Source: Sphingopyxis sp. CCNWLW2 (GTDB taxonomy: Bacteria > Pseudomonadota > Alphaproteobacteria > Sphingomonadales > Sphingomonadaceae). Taken from it: a stretch of DNA of 64,000 nucleotides. Location: NCBI RefSeq assembly GCF_037095755.1, contig NZ_JBAWKJ010000001.1, positions 1,925,001-1,989,000 on the forward strand, written 5' to 3'. The notes beneath the pieces are model-generated. The model was not told the origin of the DNA. It made no database searches and worked only from the letters and a program-made list of their open reading frames with translations. Below, in pieces: positions 49,531-63,418 of the stretch. A program made the translations under genes and the position numbers. Position 1 is the stretch's first letter, and each line of letters starts with the position of its first letter.

Positions 49531-50994
49531 GTGAGCGTGAAAGTCGAAACATTGGTGTTGTTCGGCGCGACGGGCGACCTGGCGCAGCGCATGCTCTTTC
49601 CCTCGCTTTACAATCTCCACCTCGACGGGCTGCTTGCCGATGCGCTGACGATCATCGGATCGGGGCGCTCGAAGATGGATCGCGCGGCGTTTCAGGCGCA
49701 GGTCCGCGACGCGCTGACCGAGCATTTGCTCGCCGACCGGATCGAGGAAACGGGCGTCGCGGCGTTCCTCGATCGCATCGATTATTGCGCGATCGATGCC
49801 GGTGCCGGCACCGGATATGATGAACTTGCCGCGCTGCTCGGCGACCGCATGGGCCGCCCGATCGGTGTCTACCTCTCGACCCCGCCGTCGATGTTCGGCC
49901 CGATCGCGCAGGGGCTGAAGGCCGCAGGCATCGCCTGCGCCGAATGCCGCATCGCGATGGAAAAGCCGATCGGCCACGACTTGGCCTCGTCGCGCGACGT
50001 CAATGCGCAGGTCGGCGATGCCTTTGCCGAGGACCGCGTCTTCCGCATCGACCATTATCTCGGCAAGGAAACGGTGCAGAACCTGCTGGCGCTGCGCTTT
50101 GCCAATATGCTCTTCGAGCCGCTGTGGAACGCGCAGGCGATCGATCATGTCCAGATCACCGTCGCCGAAACCGTCGGGCTCGAAGGCCGCGTGTCCTATT
50201 ATGACGGCGTCGGCGCATTGAAGGACATGGTGCAGAACCATATGCTCCAGCTGCTCGCGATCATCGCGATGGAGCCACCGTCGAGCGTGTCGTCGACCGC
50301 GGTGCGCGACGAGAAGGTGAAGTTGCTCCGCAGCTTGCGCAAGATGACCGCCGCCGACGTCAAGGCGCATAGCGTCAAGGGCCAGTACACCAGCGGTGCG
50401 GTGAACGGCGGCGCTGTCGCGGGCTATGCCGACGAACTCGGCAATCCGTCGAACACCGAAACCTTCGTCGCGCTCAAGGCCTATATCGACAATTGGCGCT
50501 GGAAGGGTGTGCCCTTCTACCTGCGCACGGGCAAGCGCATGCCGCAGCGCAAGTCGGAGGTGCTGATCCAGTTCAAGCCGGTGCCGCACAATATCTTCGC
50601 GCGCGTCGGCGCGGGCAAGCTCGATGCGAACAGCATGATCATCAACCTCCAGCCTGAGGAGAATATCCGCGTCAAGGTGATGGCGAAACAGCCCGGGCTC
50701 GACCGCGACGGCGTGAAGCTGAAAGAGGTGACGATGGACGTCTCGCTCTCGCACAGCTTTGCCGGCGAGCGGCGGCGGATCGCGTACGAGCGCCTGCTGC
50801 TCGACTTCATCGAGGGCGACCAGACTTTGTTCGTGCGCCGCGACGAGGTCGAGGCGCAGTGGCAGTGGATCGATTCGATCCGCGACGCCTGGGCCGAAGT
50901 CGACATGGCGCCGCAGAATTACACCGCGGGCAGCTGGGGCCCGTCGAGCGCAATCGCGCTGATCGAGCGCGATGGAGCGAGCTGGCATGACTGA
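49531..50994 (+). CDS. zwf: Glucose-6-phosphate 1-dehydrogenase
   Basis: The 487-residue enzyme starts the Entner-Doudoroff route by oxidising glucose-6-phosphate with NAD(P). The cofactor motif GATGDLAQR is at 12-20 and the active-site peptide RIDHYLGKE at 172-180. The start is GTG at 49531, with AAGGGGA a few bases before it. The 3' end overlaps edd by 8 nt. Confidence 0.97.
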
Positions 50995-52828
50995 TCTGAA
51001 CCCCGTAATCGCCAAGGTTACCGACCGCATCATCGAGCGCAGCGCACCGCGCCGCGCCGCCTATCTGGACCTGATGGACCGCCAGCGCGAGGCGGGAACC
51101 AATCGCGGCAATCTGTCGTGCGGCAACCTCGCCCACGCCTTTGCCGCGGCGGGTGAGGACAAACCCGTCATCCGCACCGGCGCGGCGATGAATATCGGCA
51201 TCGTCACCAGCTACAACGACATGCTCTCGGCGCATCAGCCGTACGGCCGCTATCCCGAGCAGATCAAACTCTTCGCGCGCGAAGTCGGCGCCACCGCGCA
51301 GGTCGCGGGCGGTGTTCCCGCGATGTGCGACGGGGTGACGCAGGGGCAGGCGGGCATGGACCTGTCATTGTTCAGCCGCGACAATATCGCGCAGGGTACG
51401 GTGATCGCGCTCAGCCATGCGATGTTCGAGGGCGCGCTGCTGCTCGGCATCTGCGACAAGATCGTCCCCGGCCTGCTGATCGGTGCGCTGCGCTTCGGCC
51501 ATCTGCCGCAGATCCTGATCCCGGCGGGGCCGATGCCGTCGGGGCTCGCGAACAAGGAAAAGCAACGCGTCCGCCAGCTTTATGCCGAGGGCAAGGCGAC
51601 CCGCGACGAATTGCTCGAGGCCGAGGCTGCCTCCTATCACGGTGCGGGCACCTGCACCTTCTACGGCACCGCGAACTCGAACCAGATGATGATGGAGCTG
51701 ATGGGGCTCCACGTCCCCGGCAGCGCCTTCACCAACCCCGGCACCAAGCTGCGCCAGGAACTGACGCGTGCCGCGGCGCATCGCGTTGCCGCGATCGGCT
51801 GGGACGGCGACGATTATCGTCCGCTGGCGCGCTGCATCGACGAGAAGGCGATCGTCAACGCCGCGATCGGCCTGCTCGCGACCGGCGGCTCGACCAACCA
51901 TGCGATCCATCTGCCCGCAATCGCGCGCGCGGCGGGGATCATCATCGACTGGCAGGATTTCGACGAGCTGAGCCACGCGGTGCCGCTGCTCGCGCGTGTT
52001 TATCCGAACGGGGCGGGCGATGTGAACAATTTCCATGCCGCGGGCGGCATCGGCTATGTCGTGCGCGAACTGCTCGGCGCGGGTCTGCTGCACGGCGATG
52101 TGCTCACCGTCGGCGGGACGATGGCCGATTATGCGTCGGAGCCGGTGCTGGTGAACGATGAACTCCACTGGCAGGCCGCGCCCGCCGAGAGCCGCGACGA
52201 CACCATGCTCCGCCCCGCTGCGGCGCCTTTTTCGCCCGACGGCGGGATGCGGTTGCTCGCGGGCAATCTCGGCCGCGCGATCATCAAGACGAGCGCGGTT
52301 GCCGAGGACCGCTGGACGATCGAGGCGCCGTGCCGGATCTTCGACACGCAGGACGCGGTGCTGGCGGCGTTCAAGGCGGGCGAACTCGAACGCGACGTCA
52401 TCGTCGTCGTGCGCTTCCAGGGGCCGCGCGCCAACGGCATGCCGGAACTGCACAAGCTCACCCCCGCGCTCGGCGTTTTGCAGGACCGCGGTTTCCGCGT
52501 CGCCCTGCTCACCGACGGCCGCATGTCGGGCGCGAGCGGCAAGGTGCCCGCGGTGATCCATCTCTCGCCCGAAGCCTTGCCCGGCATCGACGGCGTCAGC
52601 GGCCCGCTCGCCTTCCTCGTCGACGGTGACATCGTCCGCGTCTGTGCCCGCAAGGGCGAAGTGCTCGCGCTCGTCGATCCCGATGTCTGGGCCGCGCGCA
52701 GTCCGGCCGTCCCGCCGCCGCCCGCGGTCGGCGTCGGCCGCGAACTGTTCGCGCTGTTTCGCCACCATGCCGACGAAGCCGAAAAAGGCGGATCGGCAGT
52801 GCTCGCGGCGATGGAAACGGTCGTCTGA
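50987..52828 (+). CDS. edd: Phosphogluconate dehydratase
   Basis: The 613-residue IlvD/Edd-family iron-sulfur dehydratase turns 6-phosphogluconate into 2-keto-3-deoxy-6-phosphogluconate. Conserved blocks include [39 protein letters not shown] and [18 protein letters not shown]. The ATG sits 8 nt inside zwf. No gene for 6-phosphogluconolactonase lies between them. Confidence 0.97.
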
Positions 52829-52837
52829 GACCAACCC

Positions 52838-52922
52838 GCTTGTCCTGAGCTTGTCGAAGGACCGTCCTTCCCGTTGAACGGGTCGAGAAAAGAACAGCCC
52901 TTCGACAAGCTCAGGGCGAACG
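52838..52922. repeat. REP-type inverted repeat inside the edd-eda spacer
   Basis: Arms GTCCTGAGCTTGTCGAAGG and CCTTCGACAAGCTCAGG are about 40 bases apart, with a small inner CCGTTGAACGG hairpin. This sequence family is frequent in sphingomonads. It lies within what should be one transcript, so it may tune eda expression or mRNA decay. Confidence 0.8.
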
Positions 52923-52931
52923 GAGATTGAA

Positions 52932-53555
52932 ATGTCGGATTCAGGTATCGAGCAAATCATGCGTTTGGCGCCGGTAATCCCGGTGATCGTCATCGACCGC
53001 ATCGAGGATGCGGTGCCGATGGCTGAGGCGCTCGTTGCGGGCGGCCTCAAGGTGCTCGAAGTGACGATGCGCACCCCCGCCGCGCTCGACGCGATCGCCG
53101 CGATGAAGACGGTGCCGGGCGCGGTGGTCGGCGCGGGGACGGTGCTCAACCCCCGGATGCTGAAAGACGCCATCGACGCGGGCTCCGAATTCATCGTCTC
53201 GCCGGGCCTCACCGACAGCCTCGGCGAAGCGGCGGTGGCGAGCGGCATTCCCTTCCTGCCCGGCGTCGCCAATGCGTCGAACATCATGGCGGGGCTCGAC
53301 CTCGGGCTCGACAGCTTCAAATTCTTTCCTGCCGCGACGAGCGGCGGCATCCCGGCGCTGAAGGCGCTTGCCGGCCCCTTCGGCGGGATCAATTTCTGCC
53401 CCACCGGCGGAATCAGCGCCGCGACCGCGCCCGAATGGCTCGCGCTGGGTCCGGTACTCTGCGTCGGGGGCAGCTGGGTCGTCCCGTCGGGTCCGCTCGA
53501 TCCGTCCAGAATCGAAGCACTTGCGCGCGAGGCGGCTGCACTTTCGCGCCATTGA
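52932..53555 (+). CDS. eda: 2-keto-3-deoxy-6-phosphogluconate aldolase
   Basis: The 207-residue class I aldolase splits KDPG into pyruvate and glyceraldehyde-3-phosphate. The catalytic residues are visible: Glu in [10 protein letters not shown] and the Schiff-base Lys in [12 protein letters not shown]. Together with zwf and edd it completes the Entner-Doudoroff pathway, apart from the lactonase. Confidence 0.96.
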
Positions 53556-53617
53556 TAAACGCCATCTTTACTGCCATCGTGCAGAGAAAGGCGGCAATAT
53601 AGCCGCTTGGTGGGGAG

Positions 53618-55201
53618 ATGCGCGTGCCGAGGCCTCAGCCGCATTTGGAAGAAGTCCTGGCGTCCGAACCCGGACCGCATATCGCCGCGCTGTTCGATTT
53701 CGACGGCACGATCATCTCGGGCTATTCGGCGACCGCAATGCTGCGCGAGAAATTCCAGCGCCGCGAAATGTCGGTCGAGGAGATTGCCGAAACCGCGCAG
53801 GTCATCGCGCAACACAGCCTTGGCACCATCGGTTTTTCGGGGCTGATGTCGGGCGCCGCGAAATTCATGCGCGGGGTCGACGAGGAAAGCTTCATCGAGT
53901 TCGGCGAAGAACTCTACAAGAAGCATATCGCGCGCAAGATCTATCCCGAGACGCGCGCGATCATCGAGGCGCATCAGGCGAAGGGACACCGCGTCGCGAT
54001 CATCTCGTCAGCGACAATCTACCAGATCGAACCGACCGCGCGCGACCTGGGCATCGAGGACATCAAATGCTCGGCCTATGAGATCGAGGATGGCGTCTTC
54101 ACCGGCGAGATCATCCGACCCTTGTGCTTCGGCGAGGGCAAGGTGCTCGCCGCCGAGGAACTCGCCGCCGAATATGGCCTCGATCTCGACCAGAGCTTTT
54201 TCTATTCGGACAGCGACGACGACATCGAACTGCTCGAACGCGTCGGCAAGCCGCGCCCGCTCAACCCGAATTTGAAACTCAAGGCCATCGCCGAAGAAAA
54301 TGGCTGGCCGGTGCAGCGTTTCGCGAGCCGCGGGACGCCGAGCTGGGTCGATTATACGCGCACCATCTATGCCACCGGCTCGCTCGTCGGTGCCTTCGCC
54401 GCGGGGCTGCCGATCTGGGCGCTCACCCGTTCGCAGCGCGAGGCGGCGAATTTCTCGATCGGCCTGTTCGGCGACTTCGCGACCGCGATCACCGGGGTCG
54501 AGCTGGAGGTTGAGGACGAGAAGAACCTGTGGTCCTCGCGCCCCTGTGTCTTCATCTTCAACCACCAGAGCAAGGCGGATGTGATGATCCTCGCCAAGCT
54601 CATCCGCCGCGACATGGGCGGGGTGGGCAAGAAGGAGATCAAGGACATCCCCATCCTCGGCAAGCTGATGGAATGGGGCGGCACCGTCTTCGTCGACCGC
54701 GCCGACGGCAAGAGCGCGATCAAGGCGATGGAGCCGCTGGTCGACGCGATCAAGGTCGAGGGCAAGTCGATCTGCATCTCGCCCGAGGGCACGCGCAGCC
54801 TGACCCCCAAGCTCGAGCCGTTCAAGAAGGGCGCGTTCCACCTCGCGATGCAGGCGGGCGTGCCGATCGTCCCGATCGTGATTCATAATGCCACGGACGT
54901 CGCGCCGAAGAACGAGTTCGTGATGCGCCCCGCGACGGTGCGCGTCACCGTGCTGCCGCCGGTCGATACATCGAAGTGGAGTCCGCGGACGATCAATAAT
55001 CATGTCCGCGACGTGCGGAACATGTTCCTTCGCACGCTAGGCCAGCCCGAGGAAAGCGCGGCAGAATCGGTCGCGGCCGAAACGCCTTCCGAAGCGAAGG
55101 CCGAAAAGCCGAAGCCGAAGAAGGCGGCCGAAAAGAAGCCGGCGGCGAAAAAGAAGGCGCCGCCCAAAAGGCCGGCCGCCCGCAAGGGAAAGACCGGCTA
55201 A
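53618..55201 (+). CDS. HAD-phosphatase / lysophosphatidate acyltransferase fusion (PlsC type) with basic tail
   Basis: The 527-residue protein has two enzymes. Residues about 20-235 are a HAD-IB (SerB-like) phosphatase: D27-x-D29 (FDFDGTIISG), the SSATIYQIE motif and YSDSDDDIELL. Residues about 280-470 are a PlsC acyltransferase: N315-H-x4-D321 (NHQSKAD), FVDRADGKSA and EGTRS (390-394). A hydrophobic patch at about 252-270 may contact the membrane. The tail (about 485-527) is Lys/Ala/Pro-rich. The acyltransferase should make phosphatidate from lysophosphatidate; the HAD domain might dephosphorylate it to diacylglycerol. This domain order is known from mycobacterial proteins. It begins the lipid operon, 62 bases after eda. 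Confidence 0.9.
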   Translation: MRVPRPQPHLEEVLASEPGPHIAALFDFDGTIISGYSATAMLREKFQRREMSVEEIAETAQVIAQHSLGTIGFSGLMSGAAKFMRGVDEESFIEFGEELYKKHIARKIYPETRAIIEAHQAKGHRVAIISSATIYQIEPTARDLGIEDIKCSAYEIEDGVFTGEIIRPLCFGEGKVLAAEELAAEYGLDLDQSFFYSDSDDDIELLERVGKPRPLNPNLKLKAIAEENGWPVQRFASRGTPSWVDYTRTIYATGSLVGAFAAGLPIWALTRSQREAANFSIGLFGDFATAITGVELEVEDEKNLWSSRPCVFIFNHQSKADVMILAKLIRRDMGGVGKKEIKDIPILGKLMEWGGTVFVDRADGKSAIKAMEPLVDAIKVEGKSICISPEGTRSLTPKLEPFKKGAFHLAMQAGVPIVPIVIHNATDVAPKNEFVMRPATVRVTVLPPVDTSKWSPRTINNHVRDVRNMFLRTLGQPEESAAESVAAETPSEAKAEKPKPKKAAEKKPAAKKKAPPKRPAARKGKTG

Positions 55202-55204
55202 GCG

Positions 55205-57556
55205 GTGGCCGACGGAACACGCCGCACCTCGATCGTGGCGGAGCAGGCGGCCGACCGGCTCTATATCATAGACGCGCGCAACGGGATCGAGCGGCGGCTG
55301 TTGCTTGACTGGATTCATGCGACGTCGAACGATATTGGCGGCGATGACGAGCCGGCGTGGGCGAGCCTCGATATCGAGGACGGCGACCATGCGCTGCCCG
55401 TCGACGTGCTGCAGGCGCGGCTCGGCGGCGCGCCGTCGCGACAGATCGTGCCGCTGCGCGTCGCCTGGCGCATCCCGGGTTTCGACAAGAACCGCGCGCT
55501 CAAGTTCCGCCACCTGATCTTTGGCGACCCGCGCCATCCGGGGCCGCTGCGCGCGCGGCTGATCCTGCTTCGCGATCGGCGGCGTGCGCAGATATTGGTC
55601 GGCGAGGCGGCAACGCTCGATGCGCTGCGGATGCGCTTCTGCGCGCAGACCGGCGGCGGCGATGGCGAGGGCGCCGACAGTCCCGAATTCGCGGGCTTCG
55701 TCGCGCGGCAGGCGGCGCTTGCGCTCGACGTTGCCGAGCGCGGTATTCGAGGCACACGCTATAAGGTCCCGCGTTTTGTCGCGGATGGGCTGCGCACCAG
55801 CCCGAAATTCCGCGCGGCGCTCGCCGAGCTTGCGGAGAAGACGGGGCGCCCGGTCGCCGACCTCTATCGCGAGGCGCGGCCGCTGATGAAGGAGGTTATC
55901 GCGCGGCCGTCGGCGCTGTTCCTCGACCTGCGGGCAAGGCTCGATCGCATGATGTTCGGTGGCTACGCGCCCGAAATGGAAATCGACGCCGCCGAACTCG
56001 CGAAGCTTCGGTCGATCCTGCGCGAGCATCCGACCGCAATCCTCTTCACGCACAAAACCTATATCGACGGTGCGACGCCCAGCCGGCTTGCCTATGAGAA
56101 CGACCTGCCGATGCTGCACAGCTTCGGCGGCGCGAACCTCGATTTCGCGGTCATGGGCGAATTCTTCCGCCGTTCGGGAATGATCTTCATCCGGCGCAGC
56201 TTCCAGGATCAGCCGGTCTACAAGCTCGTGCTGCGTCATTATATCGCCTGGCTGCTTGCTAAACGCTTCCCGTTGTCGTGGGCGTTTGAGGGCACCCGCT
56301 CGCGGCTCGGCAAGCTGATGCCGCCCAAATACGGCCTGATGAAATATGTCCTCGACGCGGCGCATGCGACGGGGACGAAGGACGTGCATTTCGTGCCCTT
56401 CGTCACCAGTTTCGACCTGATCCGCGACGTCGAGGAATATGCGGCCGAACAGACGGGCCGGAACAAGAAGCCCGAGAGCCTGTCGTGGTTCCTCGGCTAT
56501 ATGAAGAGCCTCAAGGAACCCTCGGGCCGCATCCGCCTCGACATCGGCAACCCCGTGGTGATCGACGTGGCGCCGGCCCCCGACGACAAGCGCGCGCTCG
56601 AAACGATTGCCTTCGCGGTCGCGGTCGAGGCGAACCGCGTCACCCCGCTGACCGTCACCTCGGTCATGTGCCTGATCCTGCTCGGCATGGCGCCGCGCGG
56701 GGCGACGTCTGCCGAACTGCTCGGCGCGATCGGCGCGGTGACCGATTGGGCAAGGGCGCGCGATATCCGCCTCAGCAGCGAACTCGAAAGCGGCGACGAC
56801 GCCGCGTTCTCGGCGACGGTCGACACGCTCGTCGCGAGCGGGTTGCTGACGCGCTACGAGGCGGGCAGCGAGAATGTCTATTCGATCGACCCCGCCAAAC
56901 ATCCGATGGCGAGTTACTACCGCAACATCATCGCGCATCATTTCCTCGACCGCGCGATGATCGAACTCGCGCTGTTCGAGCTGCGCGACGCCGACAGCGG
57001 CGATGCGACCGCGGCCTTCTGGGCGAAGATCGACCGGCTGCGCGACCTGTTCAAATTCGAATTCTTCTACCCGCCACGCGACGAACATCGCGCCGCGATC
57101 GAGGCCGAGCTTGCGCGTATCGACCCCGTATGGGACCGCCGCCTTGCCAGTGGCGATCGCGGTATCGCGCAGCTCCTCCGGCGGTGCCAGCCGGCGGTCG
57201 GTCACGCGATATTGCTTCCCTTTGCCGAGGCTTATTCGGTCGTCGCCGAACTGCTCGCGCGCGCGAAGCCCGGCGACGCCGTCGACGAACAGGCGCTGCT
57301 CGATGCTGCGCTGGCCGAGGGCAGGCAGGCGTATCTACTGCGCCGGATCAGCAGCGAGGCGGCGATCGGCAAGCTGCTCTTCGCCAACGGCCTGTCGCTG
57401 ATGCGCCATATGGGGCTGACAACCGATGCGACCCCGGTGAGCCTCGCCGCGCGCCGCGCGCTGCTGATGGAACTGCGCGGCCTCGCCAACGTCATGGAAA
57501 CGATGCGCCTTTCAACCGTGGCGCTTGCCGACCGGTTGCCGGGTTCAGGAGGATAG
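55205..57556 (+). CDS. plsB: PlsB-like glycerol-3-phosphate acyltransferase
   Basis: The 783-residue protein has the PlsB acyltransferase core (about 275-480). Block I reads H283-K-T-Y-I-D288 (FTHKTYIDG), block II GGANLDFAVMGEFFRRSGMIFIRR (about 308-331), and block III FEGTRSRLGKLMPPKYG (361-377). It acylates glycerol-3-phosphate at sn-1 at the inner membrane. The start is GTG at 55205, 3 bases after the stop of the fusion gene. The first 230 residues are family-poor. Sphingomonads normally use PlsX/PlsY for membrane lipids, so this PlsB may serve storage lipid. Confidence 0.93.
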   Translation: MADGTRRTSIVAEQAADRLYIIDARNGIERRLLLDWIHATSNDIGGDDEPAWASLDIEDGDHALPVDVLQARLGGAPSRQIVPLRVAWRIPGFDKNRALKFRHLIFGDPRHPGPLRARLILLRDRRRAQILVGEAATLDALRMRFCAQTGGGDGEGADSPEFAGFVARQAALALDVAERGIRGTRYKVPRFVADGLRTSPKFRAALAELAEKTGRPVADLYREARPLMKEVIARPSALFLDLRARLDRMMFGGYAPEMEIDAAELAKLRSILREHPTAILFTHKTYIDGATPSRLAYENDLPMLHSFGGANLDFAVMGEFFRRSGMIFIRRSFQDQPVYKLVLRHYIAWLLAKRFPLSWAFEGTRSRLGKLMPPKYGLMKYVLDAAHATGTKDVHFVPFVTSFDLIRDVEEYAAEQTGRNKKPESLSWFLGYMKSLKEPSGRIRLDIGNPVVIDVAPAPDDKRALETIAFAVAVEANRVTPLTVTSVMCLILLGMAPRGATSAELLGAIGAVTDWARARDIRLSSELESGDDAAFSATVDTLVASGLLTRYEAGSENVYSIDPAKHPMASYYRNIIAHHFLDRAMIELALFELRDADSGDATAAFWAKIDRLRDLFKFEFFYPPRDEHRAAIEAELARIDPVWDRRLASGDRGIAQLLRRCQPAVGHAILLPFAEAYSVVAELLARAKPGDAVDEQALLDAALAEGRQAYLLRRISSEAAIGKLLFANGLSLMRHMGLTTDATPVSLAARRALLMELRGLANVMETMRLSTVALADRLPGSGG

Positions 57557-57557
57557 G

Positions 57558-59114
57558 ATGCTCAAACAGCTCAGCGCGCAGGACGCCCAGTTCCTCTACA
57601 CGCAGACCGCGAACAATCTGACGCACATCATGGGGGTCTATATCTACGACCCCTCGACCGCACCGGGCGGCTTCGTGCGTTTCAAGGACATCATTCGCCA
57701 CGTCGAAAGCCGCGTTCACACCTCGCCCTTGTTCAAGCGCCGGCTGCACCGCCTGCCTTTCGACATGGACCATCCCTATTGGGTCGAGGACGAGCATTTC
57801 GACATCGAGGCGCATATGAGCCATGCGCGGCTGCCCGAGCCCGGCGACTGGCGGCAATTCTGCATCGCGGTCGCGCGCTGGTTCTCGAAGCCGATGGATA
57901 TGAACCGCCCGCTCTGGGACATCTATATCATCGAGGGGCTTGATCGCATCCCGGGCATCCCGAAGGGCAGCTTCGCGATGCTCCACCGCGTCCATCACGC
58001 CGCGGTCGACGGTGCCTCCGGCGCGCACGCCTTCATTGCGATGAGCGACATCGATGCGAAGGGCACGCCCGCGATTGCCGAACCGCCGCCGGTCGAGGAG
58101 CTGGGCAAGGCGCCGTCGAGCACCGAAACGCTCTCGCGCGCCTGGTCGGCGTCGATGCAGTCGCCGGTCAAATTCATGAACGCGCTGATGAAAATGTCGC
58201 CCGCGATCATCTCGTCAGCGCGCAAGTCGATCGCCGAGGGCGGCATGACCGCCGGTGTCCCCGAAACGCGCTTCAACGTGCCCGTCGGCCCGCACAAGAT
58301 GTTCGACGCGACGACGGTCGCGCTCTCCGACGTCGCCGAGATCCGCAAGAAGGTGCCCGGCGCAACGGTCAACGACGTCGTGCTCACCACCGTTGGCGGG
58401 GCGCTCAGGAAATATCTCGCGAAGCACAAGGAATTACCGAAAGACAGCCTCGTCGCGGTCGCGCCGATCAATTTGCGCGGGAAGGGCGGAAAAGCCTCGA
58501 AGCCGGGTAATCAGGTGTCGGCGATGAGCGTGCCGGTGCGCACCGACATCGCCGACCCGCTCGCGCGCCTCGCGGCGATCCGCGACTATACGGTCGAGGC
58601 GAAGGAGGCGAAGGCGGGGGTCAGCGCGCGCATTATGACCGACCTGTCACAGCATATTCCGGGCGCGACGATGGCGGCGGTCGCGCGCCTCGTCACCAGC
58701 GAGCGCTTCGCGGTGCGCGGCACCAACCTGTTCATCTCGAACGTGCCCGGCGCGCAGGTACCGCTCTATCTTGCGGGCGCACAGCTCGTGCAGCAGCACG
58801 GCATGGCGCCGCTCGCGAACAATATGGGGCTGTTCGTCGCGACCCCCAGCTATAATGGCCGCATCGCCTTTTCGCTGATCTCAGAGCGTGCGGTGATGCC
58901 CGACATCGCCTTTTTCCGCGAATGCATCGAGGAAAGTTTCGCCGACCTGATGGCAGCGGTGCCGAAGCCCGAAAAGCCCAAAGCCGCTACGGCAGAGCCG
59001 AAACCCGTGGCCAAGACCAAGCCGAAATCCAAAGCCGTCCCGAAACCTGCTGCGAAGGCCAGGGTGAAACCGGTTGCTAAAGCGAACGCAACCGGCAAGA
59101 ATCCGAAAAAATAA
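57558..59114 (+). CDS. Wax ester synthase / diacylglycerol O-acyltransferase (WS/DGAT) with basic tail
   Basis: The 518-residue acyltransferase makes triacylglycerol from diacylglycerol, or wax esters from fatty alcohols, with acyl-CoA. The catalytic motif H146-H147-A-A-V-D151-G152 (HRVHHAAVDG) and the PLW motif (RPLWDIYIIEGL) are intact, and the C-terminal block SNVPGAQVPLYLAGA is typical. Residues about 469-518 form a Lys/Pro/Ala-rich tail not needed for the fold. A strong AGGAGG precedes the ATG, 1 base after the plsB stop codon. Confidence 0.95.
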   Translation: MLKQLSAQDAQFLYTQTANNLTHIMGVYIYDPSTAPGGFVRFKDIIRHVESRVHTSPLFKRRLHRLPFDMDHPYWVEDEHFDIEAHMSHARLPEPGDWRQFCIAVARWFSKPMDMNRPLWDIYIIEGLDRIPGIPKGSFAMLHRVHHAAVDGASGAHAFIAMSDIDAKGTPAIAEPPPVEELGKAPSSTETLSRAWSASMQSPVKFMNALMKMSPAIISSARKSIAEGGMTAGVPETRFNVPVGPHKMFDATTVALSDVAEIRKKVPGATVNDVVLTTVGGALRKYLAKHKELPKDSLVAVAPINLRGKGGKASKPGNQVSAMSVPVRTDIADPLARLAAIRDYTVEAKEAKAGVSARIMTDLSQHIPGATMAAVARLVTSERFAVRGTNLFISNVPGAQVPLYLAGAQLVQQHGMAPLANNMGLFVATPSYNGRIAFSLISERAVMPDIAFFRECIEESFADLMAAVPKPEKPKAATAEPKPVAKTKPKSKAVPKPAAKARVKPVAKANATGKNPKK

Positions 59115-59116
59115 CG

Positions 59117-60586
59117 ATGCTCTCGCAGGATTACCGAATGCTCTTCACCTCGACGCTCAGCGCCGACCGCGATCTGGTGATCGCGCCCGATTATGCCGCA
59201 TGGAGCAACGCCGCACGCGAACATGACCGGAAATCGGGATTGCAGGCGTGGCGCGACGCCGACGAAAGCAAGCATTTCGATTATAAGGCGATCCGCGCGC
59301 GGCTCGAAAAGCTGCGCAAGCTGTCAGCGGCGGGTGACGTCAAGGGGCTGCTCTTCGTCCTCAACGAGGGCATCCACGGCAATATCGACGGCATGGGGCA
59401 CGAGCGCCTCTATCAAAAGGCCCGCTTCGGCACAAAGAAGCTGGTCGAGGATTATGTCGCCGAGGTCGTCGCGTCGCTCGACAAGATCGCGACCGCGCGC
59501 AGCATCACCCGCGAGGAAAAGCGCGATTTCTTCCGCCGCGCGCAGCATTGCTATGGCCGCTCGGCGCTTTTGCTTTCGGGTTCGGGCAGCTTCCTGTTTT
59601 TCCACATCGGCGTGGTGAAGGCGCTCTGGGAAGAAGGCGTGCTGCCCGCGATCATGTCGGGCGCGAGCGGCGGGTCGATCGTCGCCGCCATCGTCTGCAC
59701 GCGCAAGAACGCCGACATCGGCGCCTTCCTCGAAAGCAACCGCCTCGCCAACCCCGACCGCGATCCCGAACAAAGGCGCCTCGCGCCCGACGAGGTGCGC
59801 GAGCGCCTCGCCGATCTGATCCCCGACCTGACCTTTCAGGAAGCCTATGAGGTCAGCGGCCGCCACCTCAACGTCTCGGTCGCGCCCGCCGAAAAGCATC
59901 AGAACGGCCGGCTATTGAACGCGATCACCGCGCCGAATGTGCTGATCCGTGAAGCCGTGCTCGCGTCGTGCGCGGTACCTGGCGTGTTCCCGCCGGTGAT
60001 GCTGATGGCGCGCGACGACAAGAGCGAACGCATCCCTTACCAGCCCGACCGGCGCTGGGTCGACGGCTCGGTGACGCACGATATCCCGACCAAGCGGCTC
60101 GAACGCCTTTACGGGGTCAACCATCATATCGTCAGCCAGGCGAACCCGATCGCGCTGCCCTTCGCGACCGACACGCGCAAGCAGATGGCGCCGATCGAGG
60201 CGATCCAGCATGCGTCGATGGCGACGTTCAAGGCGTGGCTCAACGCGAATATGGTGATTTTCCAGAAGCCGCTCGAGCTGATCCCGCCGCTCAATAGCAT
60301 TGCGAACATGGCGCGCTCGGTGATCAACCAGGAATATACCGGCGACATCAACATCATCCGCCCGCCCAAATTCTGGTCGCCGACCAAAATTCTGAGCGAT
60401 CTGGGGCAGGAGGATATCGACGAATTGATTGACACCGGCGAGCGCACCGCATGGCCCAAGGTTGAAATGGTCCGCACCCAGACCGCGATCAGCCGCGCGC
60501 TCGAAGCGATCCTCGCCAAGATCGACAAGGCAGGCGACGACGGTCCCGGGCACCGCAGCGCCGCGCTGAAGAAGGCGGTTCGCTGA
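59117..60586 (+). CDS. DUF3336/patatin-like phospholipase (TAG-lipase-like)
   Basis: The 489-residue protein has an N-terminal DUF3336-type region (about 25-140) and a patatin domain (about 150-350). The oxyanion motif SGSGSFLFFHIG, nucleophile S184 in G-A-S-G-G and catalytic D316-G317 (RRWVDGSVTHD) are present. This architecture matches yeast triacylglycerol lipases Tgl3/4/5 and bacterial relatives. It likely mobilises stored acylglycerol. It starts 2 bases after the WS/DGAT gene. Confidence 0.9.
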   Translation: MLSQDYRMLFTSTLSADRDLVIAPDYAAWSNAAREHDRKSGLQAWRDADESKHFDYKAIRARLEKLRKLSAAGDVKGLLFVLNEGIHGNIDGMGHERLYQKARFGTKKLVEDYVAEVVASLDKIATARSITREEKRDFFRRAQHCYGRSALLLSGSGSFLFFHIGVVKALWEEGVLPAIMSGASGGSIVAAIVCTRKNADIGAFLESNRLANPDRDPEQRRLAPDEVRERLADLIPDLTFQEAYEVSGRHLNVSVAPAEKHQNGRLLNAITAPNVLIREAVLASCAVPGVFPPVMLMARDDKSERIPYQPDRRWVDGSVTHDIPTKRLERLYGVNHHIVSQANPIALPFATDTRKQMAPIEAIQHASMATFKAWLNANMVIFQKPLELIPPLNSIANMARSVINQEYTGDINIIRPPKFWSPTKILSDLGQEDIDELIDTGERTAWPKVEMVRTQTAISRALEAILAKIDKAGDDGPGHRSAALKKAVR

Positions 60587-60588
60587 GC

Positions 60589-61449
60589 ATGGCGGCGGGT
60601 GCCGTAATCCTGCCTGCCGGTTCCGCGGGGGCGGGGGCAAAGCTGCACGTCACCCATTGGCTGCCCGAGGGCCGCCCGCGCGCGATCATCTTGCTCGCGC
60701 ACGGCTATGCCGAACATGCTGGGCGCTATGAACATGTCGCGAAGCGGCTGACCGGTGCGGGTTACGCCATCTATGCGGTCGACCATTGGGGACATGGCAA
60801 TTCGGATGGCGAGGGTGGTTTCGTCCCCCGCTTTTCGGCGTTTCTCGACGGGATGAGCGAATTGTTGACACTCGTCGAAATCAACCATGCCGATACGCCG
60901 CGCCTGCTGCTCGGCCACAGCATGGGCGGGCTGATCGCGACCCTGTTCCTTATCGAGCGCCAGAATGCCTTTGTCGCAGCCGCGGTCTCGGGCCCGGCGA
61001 TCCTGCCCGCCGAACCGCCATCGCGCTTCACCGTCTGGATCAGCCGCTTCCTCTCGCGCTTCTTCCCGCGCCTCGGCGTGCTTTCGCTCGATGCCACCGG
61101 CGTCAGCCGCGACGCGCGGGTTGTCGCTGCCTATCAAGCCGACCCGCTCGTCTATGGCGGGAAGATCGGCGCGCGGCTGGGCAAGGAATTCATGGACGCG
61201 ATGGCGGTTGCGCAGGCCGACGCGCCGAAGATCCACCTGCCGATCCTGATCCAGCATGGCGAAGCCGACCGGCTGACCGCGCCCGCGGGCTCGCGCTACC
61301 TGTTCGCCAATGTCGCGTCGAAGGACAAGCGCCTCGAAATCTACCCCGGCCTGTTCCACGAAATCTACAACGAGCCCGAACGCGACGCGGTGCTCGACGA
61401 TCTGATCGGTTGGTTCGACGCGCATGTGAAAGGCGCGCCCGCCGCATGA
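60589..61449 (+). CDS. Monoacylglycerol-lipase-like alpha/beta hydrolase
   Basis: The 286-residue hydrolase has the triad S111 (GHSMGG), D227 (QHGEADRLTAP) and H257 (GLFHEIYNEPE). HGYAEHAGRYEH (39-50) is the oxyanion segment characteristic of monoacylglycerol lipases (MGLL family). It should release the last fatty acid from glycerol. It lies 2 bases behind the patatin gene and overlaps the next by ATGA. Confidence 0.92.
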   Translation: MAAGAVILPAGSAGAGAKLHVTHWLPEGRPRAIILLAHGYAEHAGRYEHVAKRLTGAGYAIYAVDHWGHGNSDGEGGFVPRFSAFLDGMSELLTLVEINHADTPRLLLGHSMGGLIATLFLIERQNAFVAAAVSGPAILPAEPPSRFTVWISRFLSRFFPRLGVLSLDATGVSRDARVVAAYQADPLVYGGKIGARLGKEFMDAMAVAQADAPKIHLPILIQHGEADRLTAPAGSRYLFANVASKDKRLEIYPGLFHEIYNEPERDAVLDDLIGWFDAHVKGAPAA

Positions 61450-62378
61450 GAATCCTGCTCGTCCTGATCTTCGCGCCGCTGATCGCGCTTGCGCTGATGT
61501 ATTTCGTCTTTCCCGGACGCCTCGTGGCGATCGGGCGCGCGCTGCTGCGCCGTCGCGGCGGGACGGTGCAGAAGAGCGTCGTCGTCGACGGCCGCACCTG
61601 GCCCTATCTGGAGGGCGGCGATCCGTCGAAGCCGCTGCTGCTGCTCGTCCACGGTTTTGCGGGCGACAAGGATAATTGGTCGATGATCGCGCCCTATCTG
61701 ACACGCGATTATCATATCATCGCGCCCGACCTGCCGGGGTTCGGTGAGAATGAGCGCAATCCCGACCTCGCCTATGACCTGCAGGCGCAGACCGCGCGGC
61801 TGAAGGCCTTCGCCGACACCCTCGGCCTCCAGCGCCCGCATGTCGCGGGCAACAGCATGGGCGGCTGGATCGCGCTGCGCTATGCGATCGATTGCCCCGA
61901 CGCGCTCGCCAGCCTGAGCCTGCTCGACAATGCGGGCGTCAATGGCGCGAATGAAAGCGAGCTTCAGAAACTCGCGGCAAACGAGGATTATAATCCGCTC
62001 ATCCTCGCCAATCTGGACGATGCCGACCGGCTGGTGGCGATGGTCGTCCACAAACCGCCGTTTATTCCCGCACGGCTGAAACCCGTGCTCTACGCCGACG
62101 GCCTCAAATATCGCGACCAACTCGACAAGATCTTCTGGGTGATCGCGACGGAGGGGCGCGACCATCCGCTGAACGGCCGCCTCGGCGAGGTGAAGGTGCC
62201 GACGCTGATCATCTGGGGGCGTCACGATAAGCTGCTCGACGTCAGCTGCGTGCCCGTACTCGAAGCGGGGATCGCGGGGAGCGAGAGCCATATCTTCGAA
62301 CATGTCGGCCATGTCCCGATGATCGAGGATCCGAAGGCGACCGCCGCGGTGATGAAGGGCTTCCTTGCCAAGCATTGA
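61446..62378 (+). CDS. Membrane-anchored alpha/beta hydrolase, lipase-like
   Basis: The 310-residue protein has one N-terminal membrane helix (about 2-22) and a hydrolase fold: oxyanion LLLVHGFAGDKDNW, nucleophile S137 in GNSMGG, acid in WGRHDKLLDV and H in HVGHVPMIED. The architecture recalls ABHD6-type monoacylglycerol lipases. With its membrane anchor it may act at the bilayer or droplet surface. Overlap ATGA with the preceding gene. Confidence 0.9.
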   Translation: MRILLVLIFAPLIALALMYFVFPGRLVAIGRALLRRRGGTVQKSVVVDGRTWPYLEGGDPSKPLLLLVHGFAGDKDNWSMIAPYLTRDYHIIAPDLPGFGENERNPDLAYDLQAQTARLKAFADTLGLQRPHVAGNSMGGWIALRYAIDCPDALASLSLLDNAGVNGANESELQKLAANEDYNPLILANLDDADRLVAMVVHKPPFIPARLKPVLYADGLKYRDQLDKIFWVIATEGRDHPLNGRLGEVKVPTLIIWGRHDKLLDVSCVPVLEAGIAGSESHIFEHVGHVPMIEDPKATAAVMKGFLAKH

Positions 62379-62416
62379 AATGCGCGTCAGTCTCCCCCCA
62401 AAACAGGGAGAGTGGA

Positions 62417-63418
62417 ATGCGGTTGAAGGTGGGGCTGCTCGGCGGGGGCAGCTGGGGGACGACGGTTGCCTCGGTGGTGTCGCGCAACGCGCCGATCACC
62501 TTGTGGGCGCGCGACGCCGAGACCGTCGGCGACATCAACACGCACAACGAAAATCGCAAATATCTGCCCGGCATCGCTTTGCCGCCGACGCTGCGCGCCA
62601 CCGCCGACATGGCCGAGGTCGTCGCGGGCGCCGATGTGCTCGTCATGGGCGTCCCCTCACACAGCTTTCGTGCCGTGCTTGAGGAAGCACGCAATCATCT
62701 CCGTCCGTGGGTCCCCGTCATCAGCCTGACCAAGGGTCTCGAACTCGCGTCGGGCAAGCGGATGACCGAATTGATCGAGGAGGTGCTTCCCGGCCACCCC
62801 GTTGGCGTGCTCACCGGGCCGAACCTTGCGCGCGAGATCATGACGGGGCAGGCGGCGGCAAGCGTCCTGTCGATGGAGGACGAGATCGTTGTCCGCGCGC
62901 TCCAGCCCGTGTTCCATTCGGGTCTGTTCCGCGTCTACACCAACACCGACCTGCTCGGCTGCGAACTCGGCGGGGTGCTCAAGAATATCATCGCGATCGC
63001 GGTCGGCATGGGCGACGGGCTCGGCGCGGGCGACAATACCCGCTCGGCGCTGATGACACGCGGGCTTTCGGAAATCACCCGGCTCGGCGTCGCGATGGGC
63101 GGACGGGCCGAAACCTTTGCCGGGCTCACCGGCATGGGCGACCTGATCGCGACCTGCACCAGCCCGTTGTCGCGCAACCGCCACGTCGGGGTCGAACTCG
63201 GCAAGGGGCGCCCGATCGAGGAGATCATCGCGGGCATGAACATGGTCGCCGAGGGGGTGAAGAGCGCGCCGACCGTCATCGCGCTCGCAGAAAAGCATGG
63301 TCTCGACATGCCGATCGCACGCGATGTGTATGATGTAACGCAGGGAAAACGCAGCGCGCAGGACGTGTTTCGCGGCCTGCTTCGCTCCGCTGTTGGTGAC
63401 GAAGCCCACCCCGGCTGA
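62417..63418 (+). CDS. gpsA: Glycerol-3-phosphate dehydrogenase [NAD(P)+]
   Basis: The 333-residue enzyme reduces dihydroxyacetone phosphate to glycerol-3-phosphate, the start of glycerolipid synthesis. The NAD-binding motif GLLGGGSWGTTVA (6-18), GVLTGPNLAREI and LGGVLKNIIAIAVGMGDGLG are conserved. It is last in the lipid operon, 38 bases after the second hydrolase, and supplies the PlsB substrate. Confidence 0.97.
   Translation: MRLKVGLLGGGSWGTTVASVVSRNAPITLWARDAETVGDINTHNENRKYLPGIALPPTLRATADMAEVVAGADVLVMGVPSHSFRAVLEEARNHLRPWVPVISLTKGLELASGKRMTELIEEVLPGHPVGVLTGPNLAREIMTGQAAASVLSMEDEIVVRALQPVFHSGLFRVYTNTDLLGCELGGVLKNIIAIAVGMGDGLGAGDNTRSALMTRGLSEITRLGVAMGGRAETFAGLTGMGDLIATCTSPLSRNRHVGVELGKGRPIEEIIAGMNMVAEGVKSAPTVIALAEKHGLDMPIARDVYDVTQGKRSAQDVFRGLLRSAVGDEAHPG

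Follow-up and report, generated by a model that had tools for sequence, protein, structure and literature searches.

We identified in the genome of Sphingopyxis sp. CCNWLW2 a row of seven genes that probably encodes an acyl-CoA-based pathway dedicated to turning dihydroxyacetone phosphate into triacylglycerol (TAG), and also enzymes that would break TAG down again. The seven open reading frames (ORFs) all lie on the + strand, at positions 53618–63418 of a 64,000-nucleotide stretch of contig NZ_JBAWKJ010000001.1; this whole stretch is hereafter called the window. The row is a variant of the known Kennedy-pathway clusters that contain a wax ester synthase/diacylglycerol acyltransferase (WS/DGAT), of the atf9-plsB-plsC type. 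Next to these synthesis genes lies the gene of a probable DUF3336 lipase; this combination has been little studied and is seen again in other bacteria. The new part is that DUF3336 tracks both WS/DGAT and the phosphatase-acyltransferase fusion that opens the row at the level of whole genomes.

Gene families were assigned with Pfam domains and with NCBIfam models and their cut-offs, and structural relatives by sequence matches to the PDB. The first gene (53618–55201, 527 aa) encodes a fusion of a HAD-IB phosphatase and a 1-acylglycerol-3-phosphate acyltransferase (AGPAT), with Pfam matches to HAD (5.9e-34) and Acyltransferase (2.2e-31); its halves pass the cut-offs of TIGR01490 and TIGR00530. 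It is followed by a glycerol-3-phosphate acyltransferase (GPAT; 55205–57556, GTG start, GPAT_C 2e-63) of the NF002886 type, scoring 950 bits against a cut-off of 721. The WS/DGAT (57558–59114) begins at an ATG internal to a longer ORF starting at 57525, matches WS_DGAT_cat (1.5e-52) and WS_DGAT_C (2.8e-29), passes the TIGR02946 cut-off, and has 6chj and 7nxg as PDB relatives. The fourth protein (59117–60586), a probable TAG lipase, carries DUF3336 (5.8e-33) and Patatin (6.6e-22) domains, and the sequence search returned no PDB relative for it. The fifth (60589–61449; Hydrolase_4, 1.5e-76) is a monoacylglycerol lipase of the MGLL type, with the M. tuberculosis monoglyceride lipase 6eic as top PDB match (6e-58) and human MGLL at about 6e-44. 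The sixth (61446–62378; Abhydrolase_1, 9.3e-28) is an alpha/beta-hydrolase whose N-terminus is hydrophobic; its top PDB match is 6i8w (1.6e-60), and human ABHD6 (7ots, 4.8e-31) ranks lower. The row ends with GpsA (62417–63418, ATG at 62417), which matches NAD_Gly3P_dh_N and NAD_Gly3P_dh_C and passes the NF009098 cut-off. In gene order, the gaps are 3, 1, 2, 2, and -4 nt, then 38 nt before GpsA. A preliminary description of this DNA had given the same genes, identities, coordinates, and first five gaps.

It had also described the catalytic motifs of every enzyme as intact, and the motifs sought were indeed found in all seven window proteins. The patatin combines both of its domains with their catalytic motifs, TAG hydrolysis being its predicted activity, and the fifth protein is close to solved MGLL structures and has the GxSxG motif, as GHSMG. 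Motifs were also counted in full-length homologs, using loose patterns and with some genomes counted twice. HAD motif I was present in 114/115 fusion homologs and the AGPAT HX4D motif in 115/115; the other counts were 99/103 for HX4D in GPAT, 77/77 for HHxxxDG in WS/DGAT, 60/60 for GxSGG and DG in the patatin, 59/66 for GxSMG in MGLL, 54/55 for the hydrolase, and 81/84 for GpsA.

Based on these families, GpsA would supply glycerol 3-phosphate, GPAT would convert it to lysophosphatidate, and the AGPAT half of the fusion would form phosphatidate. The HAD half probably strips the phosphate to give diacylglycerol, from which WS/DGAT would make TAG. In the direction of breakdown, the DUF3336-patatin is predicted to cleave acyl chains from TAG, the MGLL-type enzyme would finish the monoacylglycerol, and the membrane hydrolase may clear lyso- or monoacyl-lipids. 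Gene identities and order thus back the common role in neutral glycerolipid metabolism first proposed for the row. The further proposal of a self-contained full cycle needs qualification: the row has no separate phosphatase, and the HAD half would have to perform that step for the cycle to be closed.

The HAD half is probably a phosphatidate phosphatase, and it is the natural candidate: no PAP2 protein is encoded within the row, and HAD motif I is almost always kept. This idea of the HAD half as the missing phosphatidate phosphatase is already published: it was put forward for Rhodococcus jostii RHA1 (PMC4850399) and discussed for marine clusters (PMC10351704). Histidinol or phosphoserine phosphatase was tried as an assignment and rejected, with NF052360 (111 of 280 bits), NF052359 (88 of 400), and TIGR00338 (31 of 144) all below cut-off. 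A fold model of the fusion had a mean pLDDT of 70.3 and a pTM of 0.47 (the other four models were below 50), and a fold search with it matched 3fvv (HAD) and 5kym (PlsC); the model is weak and serves just to support two domains, so the substrate is not inferable from it. Of note, HAD motif I is degenerate in the fusion of Nocardia farcinica (L110:12382-13779).

The preliminary description had named a gene order found only in this strain as a point that would count against it; a synteny check showed that the order is widespread. The closest homologs that carry a species name come from Sphingopyxis. Of 80 genomes from this genus, 73 encode the GPAT (71 above cut-off, with no match in the other 7); in the family, it was found in 6 of 149 genomes, covering 3 of 96 genera, with no match in 143. 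In a sample of 398 proteobacterial genomes (the phylum sample), GPAT passed the NF002886 cut-off in two, both Sphingopyxis, and 114 further matches below cut-off are mostly probably ordinary PlsB. From the 73 GPAT-bearing Sphingopyxis genomes, 37 loci were compared. The fusion, GPAT, WS/DGAT, patatin, and MGLL genes occur in this order in all 37, and 36 have the complete row with order and strand unchanged; the remaining locus, L088, lacks the hydrolase and GpsA. A locus from a different genus in the family (G089, L104) also has all seven genes in order, at 50–80% identity. In two more genomes, G065 and G135, the GPAT is merely a distant one, accompanied by a fusion, an MGLL gene on the opposite strand and, in G065, GpsA.

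A scan of named loci with an alignment of the fusion retained 80 of 554 confirmed loci, with many contigs ending early and some genomes shared with the 37-locus set. All seven genes were present in 16 of the 80, eight in Sphingopyxis and eight in Parasphingorhabdus, Sphingorhabdus, and uncultured Sphingomonadaceae. The first five genes and their order are also conserved in a Kordiimonadaceae metagenome-assembled genome (MAG; L208). In a proteobacterial MAG (L205), the fusion, GPAT, patatin, MGLL, and hydrolase genes are kept, with no WS/DGAT between GPAT and patatin.

The link between the patatin and the synthase extends beyond the row. In the phylum sample, WS/DGAT was found in 44 genomes and DUF3336 in 12, and all 12 DUF3336 genomes encode a WS/DGAT (hypergeometric P of 8e-13, or 7e-8 by genus, shared ancestry ignored). 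The two genes lie at most 5 kb apart in 6 of these 12 genomes, compared with a roughly estimated 0.12 expected; the six include two from Sphingopyxis, and the sampled genomes cannot count as independent. We also examined 30 hand-picked genomes that encode the fusion, 25 without and 5 with a WS/DGAT in the locus, and 27 with GPAT beside the fusion. WS/DGAT was found in 27 of them, including 22 of the 25 lacking an adjacent copy; DUF3336 was found in 27, and both in 24. Eight of the 27 DUF3336-bearing fusion genomes have the two genes within 5 kb. Such gene pairs share a strand in 3 of 6 cases in the phylum sample and in 8 of 10 in the fusion genomes. The pairing of lipases with the synthase, at first thought unusual, is therefore not a one-off. 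No report of a DUF3336-WS/DGAT link was found in the open-licence literature, nor did a search there for wax ester synthase, patatin, gene cluster, and Kennedy pathway together return anything; among the open-licence matches listed for Sphingopyxis with triacylglycerol, nothing was apparently relevant.

As in the known clusters, the WS/DGAT, GPAT, and HAD-AGPAT fusion genes are adjacent and on one strand, and the GPAT is of the actinobacterial type, with a Nocardia copy as reference rather than one from RHA1 or M. tuberculosis. The NF002886 model also covers Actinobacteria, with 1091 bits for the copy of Nocardia farcinica; the available actinobacterial copies are distant from those of the row (34% identity for the Nocardia GPAT, 35% for the fusion). 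The atf9-plsB-plsC genes of R. jostii RHA1 likewise encode a WS/DGAT, a GPAT, and a predicted AGPAT-HAD fusion, form one operon by RNA-seq, and were proposed to encode all Kennedy steps (PMC4850399). In contrast to our row, the accessible part of that paper names no patatin, MGLL-type lipase, or GpsA in the operon, the likeness being one of description. M. tuberculosis Rv2482c-Rv2485c, also compared by description, groups a GPAT, a PlsC-type enzyme, and a TAG synthase with an adjacent carboxylesterase gene, lipQ (PMC10699116, PMC3503283); LipQ stands in place of the patatin, MGLL-type, and membrane hydrolases of the row. Complete Kennedy genes beside WS/DGAT were reported on Sphingomonadaceae scaffolds, including Parasphingorhabdus halotolerans JK6 (PMC10351704). 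The same article notes that some WS/DGAT clusters of Gammaproteobacteria and Actinobacteria have genes for a lipase, an alpha/beta-hydrolase, and a glycerol-3-phosphate dehydrogenase nearby. The seven-gene order is not described in the accessible part of that article, and the word patatin is absent from its main text.

Eukaryotic enzymes offer two further parallels. Yeast Tgl3/4/5 and plant SDP1 are TAG lipases with DUF3336 followed by patatin. The protein of the row has this domain order, and differs in being bacterial, in lying beside a presumed synthase, and in having a predicted activity. The plant enzymes GPAT4/6/8, which act on glycerol 3-phosphate and yield monoacylglycerol, also carry a phosphatase-like domain ahead of an acyltransferase, a likeness to the fusion by domain layout.

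Several observations weigh against a dedicated TAG pathway. Three MAGs of 2.2–2.9 Mb (G622, G629, and G631) have DUF3336 and show no WS/DGAT, and three fusion genomes have WS/DGAT without DUF3336; with three genomes each way holding one partner alone, the coupling is not absolute. The co-occurrence P values moreover ignore both shared ancestry and the choice of the 30 genomes. In 24 of the 80 named loci, titled Halieaceae or other Gammaproteobacteria, the fusion, GPAT, and GpsA genes (in that order in 23) come with no WS/DGAT in the fetched stretch. The nearest equivalog models of the HAD half are histidinol phosphatases, though below cut-off. Finally, many relatives have loose junctions, with gpsA set apart. 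Among the Sphingopyxis loci, excluding the frameshift-ridden assembly L107, gaps of at most 30 nt were found in 15/36 for fusion-GPAT, 15/36 for GPAT-WS/DGAT, 23/36 for WS/DGAT-patatin, 31/36 for patatin-MGLL, 15/35 for MGLL-hydrolase, and 0/35 for hydrolase-GpsA (the gpsA start may be 6 nt off in some relatives, a shift that brings no gap down to 30 nt). The tight spacing from which co-expression had been concluded is thus not an essential feature, and co-transcription is something we infer for the window.

The expression of the Rhodococcus genes also bears on the physiological role. In nitrogen excess, the atf9 transcript is abundant; under nitrogen limitation, the condition in which TAG accumulates, its level is 5.4-fold lower (PMC4850399). 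This fall as TAG builds up is another observation against the proposed pathway, as gene content is then no proof of a storage role, and it makes growth-phase turnover a better reading than a pure reserve. If synthase and lipases were co-produced, the result could be a continuously turned-over acyl buffer. The early suggestion of turnover rather than simple storage is thus favored by analogy with Rhodococcus, turnover in Sphingopyxis itself being conjectural.

Alternatively, the row might serve membrane-lipid remodelling, the acyltransferases rebuilding phosphatidate, the patatin, MGLL-like enzyme, and membrane hydrolase trimming phospholipids and lysolipids, and WS/DGAT only parking surplus acyl chains. 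Patatins often act on phospholipids, the top match of the sixth protein, 6i8w, is PlaF, a membrane phospholipase A, and the 24 loci without a nearby WS/DGAT point the same way. Close homologs of the patatin bear the JGI names "NTE family protein" and a composite one with phospholipase A2, LPA acyltransferase, and TAG lipase among its terms. We nevertheless consider this reading unlikely, as WS/DGAT, DUF3336, and the fusion tend to co-occur across genomes, and monoacylglycerol lipases are the nearest relatives of the fifth protein.

The TAG route is also preferred over a housekeeping role, in which the row would be the main phosphatidate supply and the lipases chance neighbors. The genome carries PlsY, three further PF01553 proteins, and a second GpsA outside the row, as well as one PAP2 protein above cut-off. 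With PlsY, another GpsA, and other acyltransferases elsewhere, the row looks dedicated; it would add a second enzyme set which, judged from the families, is presumably acyl-CoA-dependent. A main phosphatidate supply would hardly be missing, as this GPAT is, from most of the family and from seven Sphingopyxis genomes, and chance does not readily explain the first five genes staying together in all 37 Sphingopyxis loci, which makes this role very improbable. A second WS/DGAT in the genome, 29% identical to that of the row, lies in the stretch from the IF-2 to the TruB gene (L171:8260-9744; G000 C1, near 1844838).

Wax ester as the main product is the least probable reading: TIGR02946 spans both wax ester and TAG synthesis, whereas the row is made up of glycerol-backbone enzymes, and TAG is the likelier product because no fatty-acyl reductase is among the seven proteins (the check covered these seven, not the remainder of the genome). 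TAG storage has been reported in Sphingomonas sp. EGY1 (PMC10351704).

More generally, and at slightly less than even chance, DUF3336-patatins could be the dedicated TAG lipases of WS/DGAT-bearing proteobacteria. In Sphingopyxis and relatives, they would be built into a complete acyl-CoA Kennedy operon in which the HAD half is the phosphatidate phosphatase, and TAG would undergo simultaneous synthesis and cleavage, serving as a regulated acyl buffer. To our knowledge, no intracellular TAG lipase has been established in these Gram-negative bacteria. The bacterial enzyme that converts phosphatidate to diacylglycerol for storage lipid is likewise described as unsettled (PMC4850399, PMC10351704). 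The row is a compact test of both gaps, with one fusion protein and one patatin, and the prediction for DUF3336-patatins is testable in general. Given the other copies of phospholipid enzymes and the near-universal presence of the row in the genus, its genes are probably deletable.

The longer junctions often contain hairpins. In gaps of 60–210 nt, strong hairpins (z < -4 against mononucleotide shuffles) were found in 20/21 fusion-GPAT, 15/21 GPAT-WS/DGAT, 1/11 WS/DGAT-patatin, 4/5 patatin-MGLL, 12/14 MGLL-hydrolase, and 11/20 hydrolase-GpsA junctions. Hairpin elements thus seem to have entered the junctions on repeated occasions; the window, with gaps close to zero, would show one of several states. 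REP-like hairpin elements of about 100–130 nt occur at several row junctions in other Sphingopyxis (L070-L109). The window has an inverted repeat between edd and eda (52836–52923), the row's own junctions being too short for one. At L089, L091, and L100, the MGLL-hydrolase distance exceeds 1 kb, possibly through an inserted extra gene.

Directly upstream of the row lie the Entner-Doudoroff genes zwf, edd, and eda (49531–53555), which are present there in 36 of the 37 Sphingopyxis loci (absent at L080). In the other genera that have the complete row, the G089 locus included, no zwf, edd, or eda match was found next to it. The leader between eda and the fusion gene (53556–53617, + strand) contains a small hairpin before the start codon and is alike by eye, without a control, in 19 other Sphingopyxis loci with a gap below 75 nt. 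This likeness hints at an own promoter or 5' leader; promoter and terminator scans gave results at chance level. In the gpsA leader (62379–62416, + strand), TCTC and GGGAG arms lie beside the start codon, a pattern seen in 32 of 35 loci, which are related and not independent, compared with 78 of 22464 control tiles. The arms might fold into a hairpin that covers the ribosome site; as the alignment showed no clear covariation, we claim no RNA structure.

Gene trees were built from 46 chosen fusion and 40 GPAT sequences, with midpoint roots and several long branches. Ten sphingomonad copies form one fully supported group in both, adjoining the Kordiimonadaceae copy in the fusion tree (93/72) and the Kordiimonadaceae and Lysobacterales MAG copies in the GPAT tree (100/99), while the G065 and G135 copies lie far from this group. 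These trees are consistent with a lateral spread of fusion and GPAT. No relative of either protein was found in viral contigs. GPAT matched in 24 plasmid records, just one of which (Nocardia) covers at least 80%; a Mycobacterium paragordonae plasmid copy scores 532 bits, below the NF002886 cut-off. Across Sphingopyxis species (L070-L109), MGLL and the hydrolase are 65–98% identical to the window and the other five proteins about 82–98%, a spread that looks as if alleles had been swapped.

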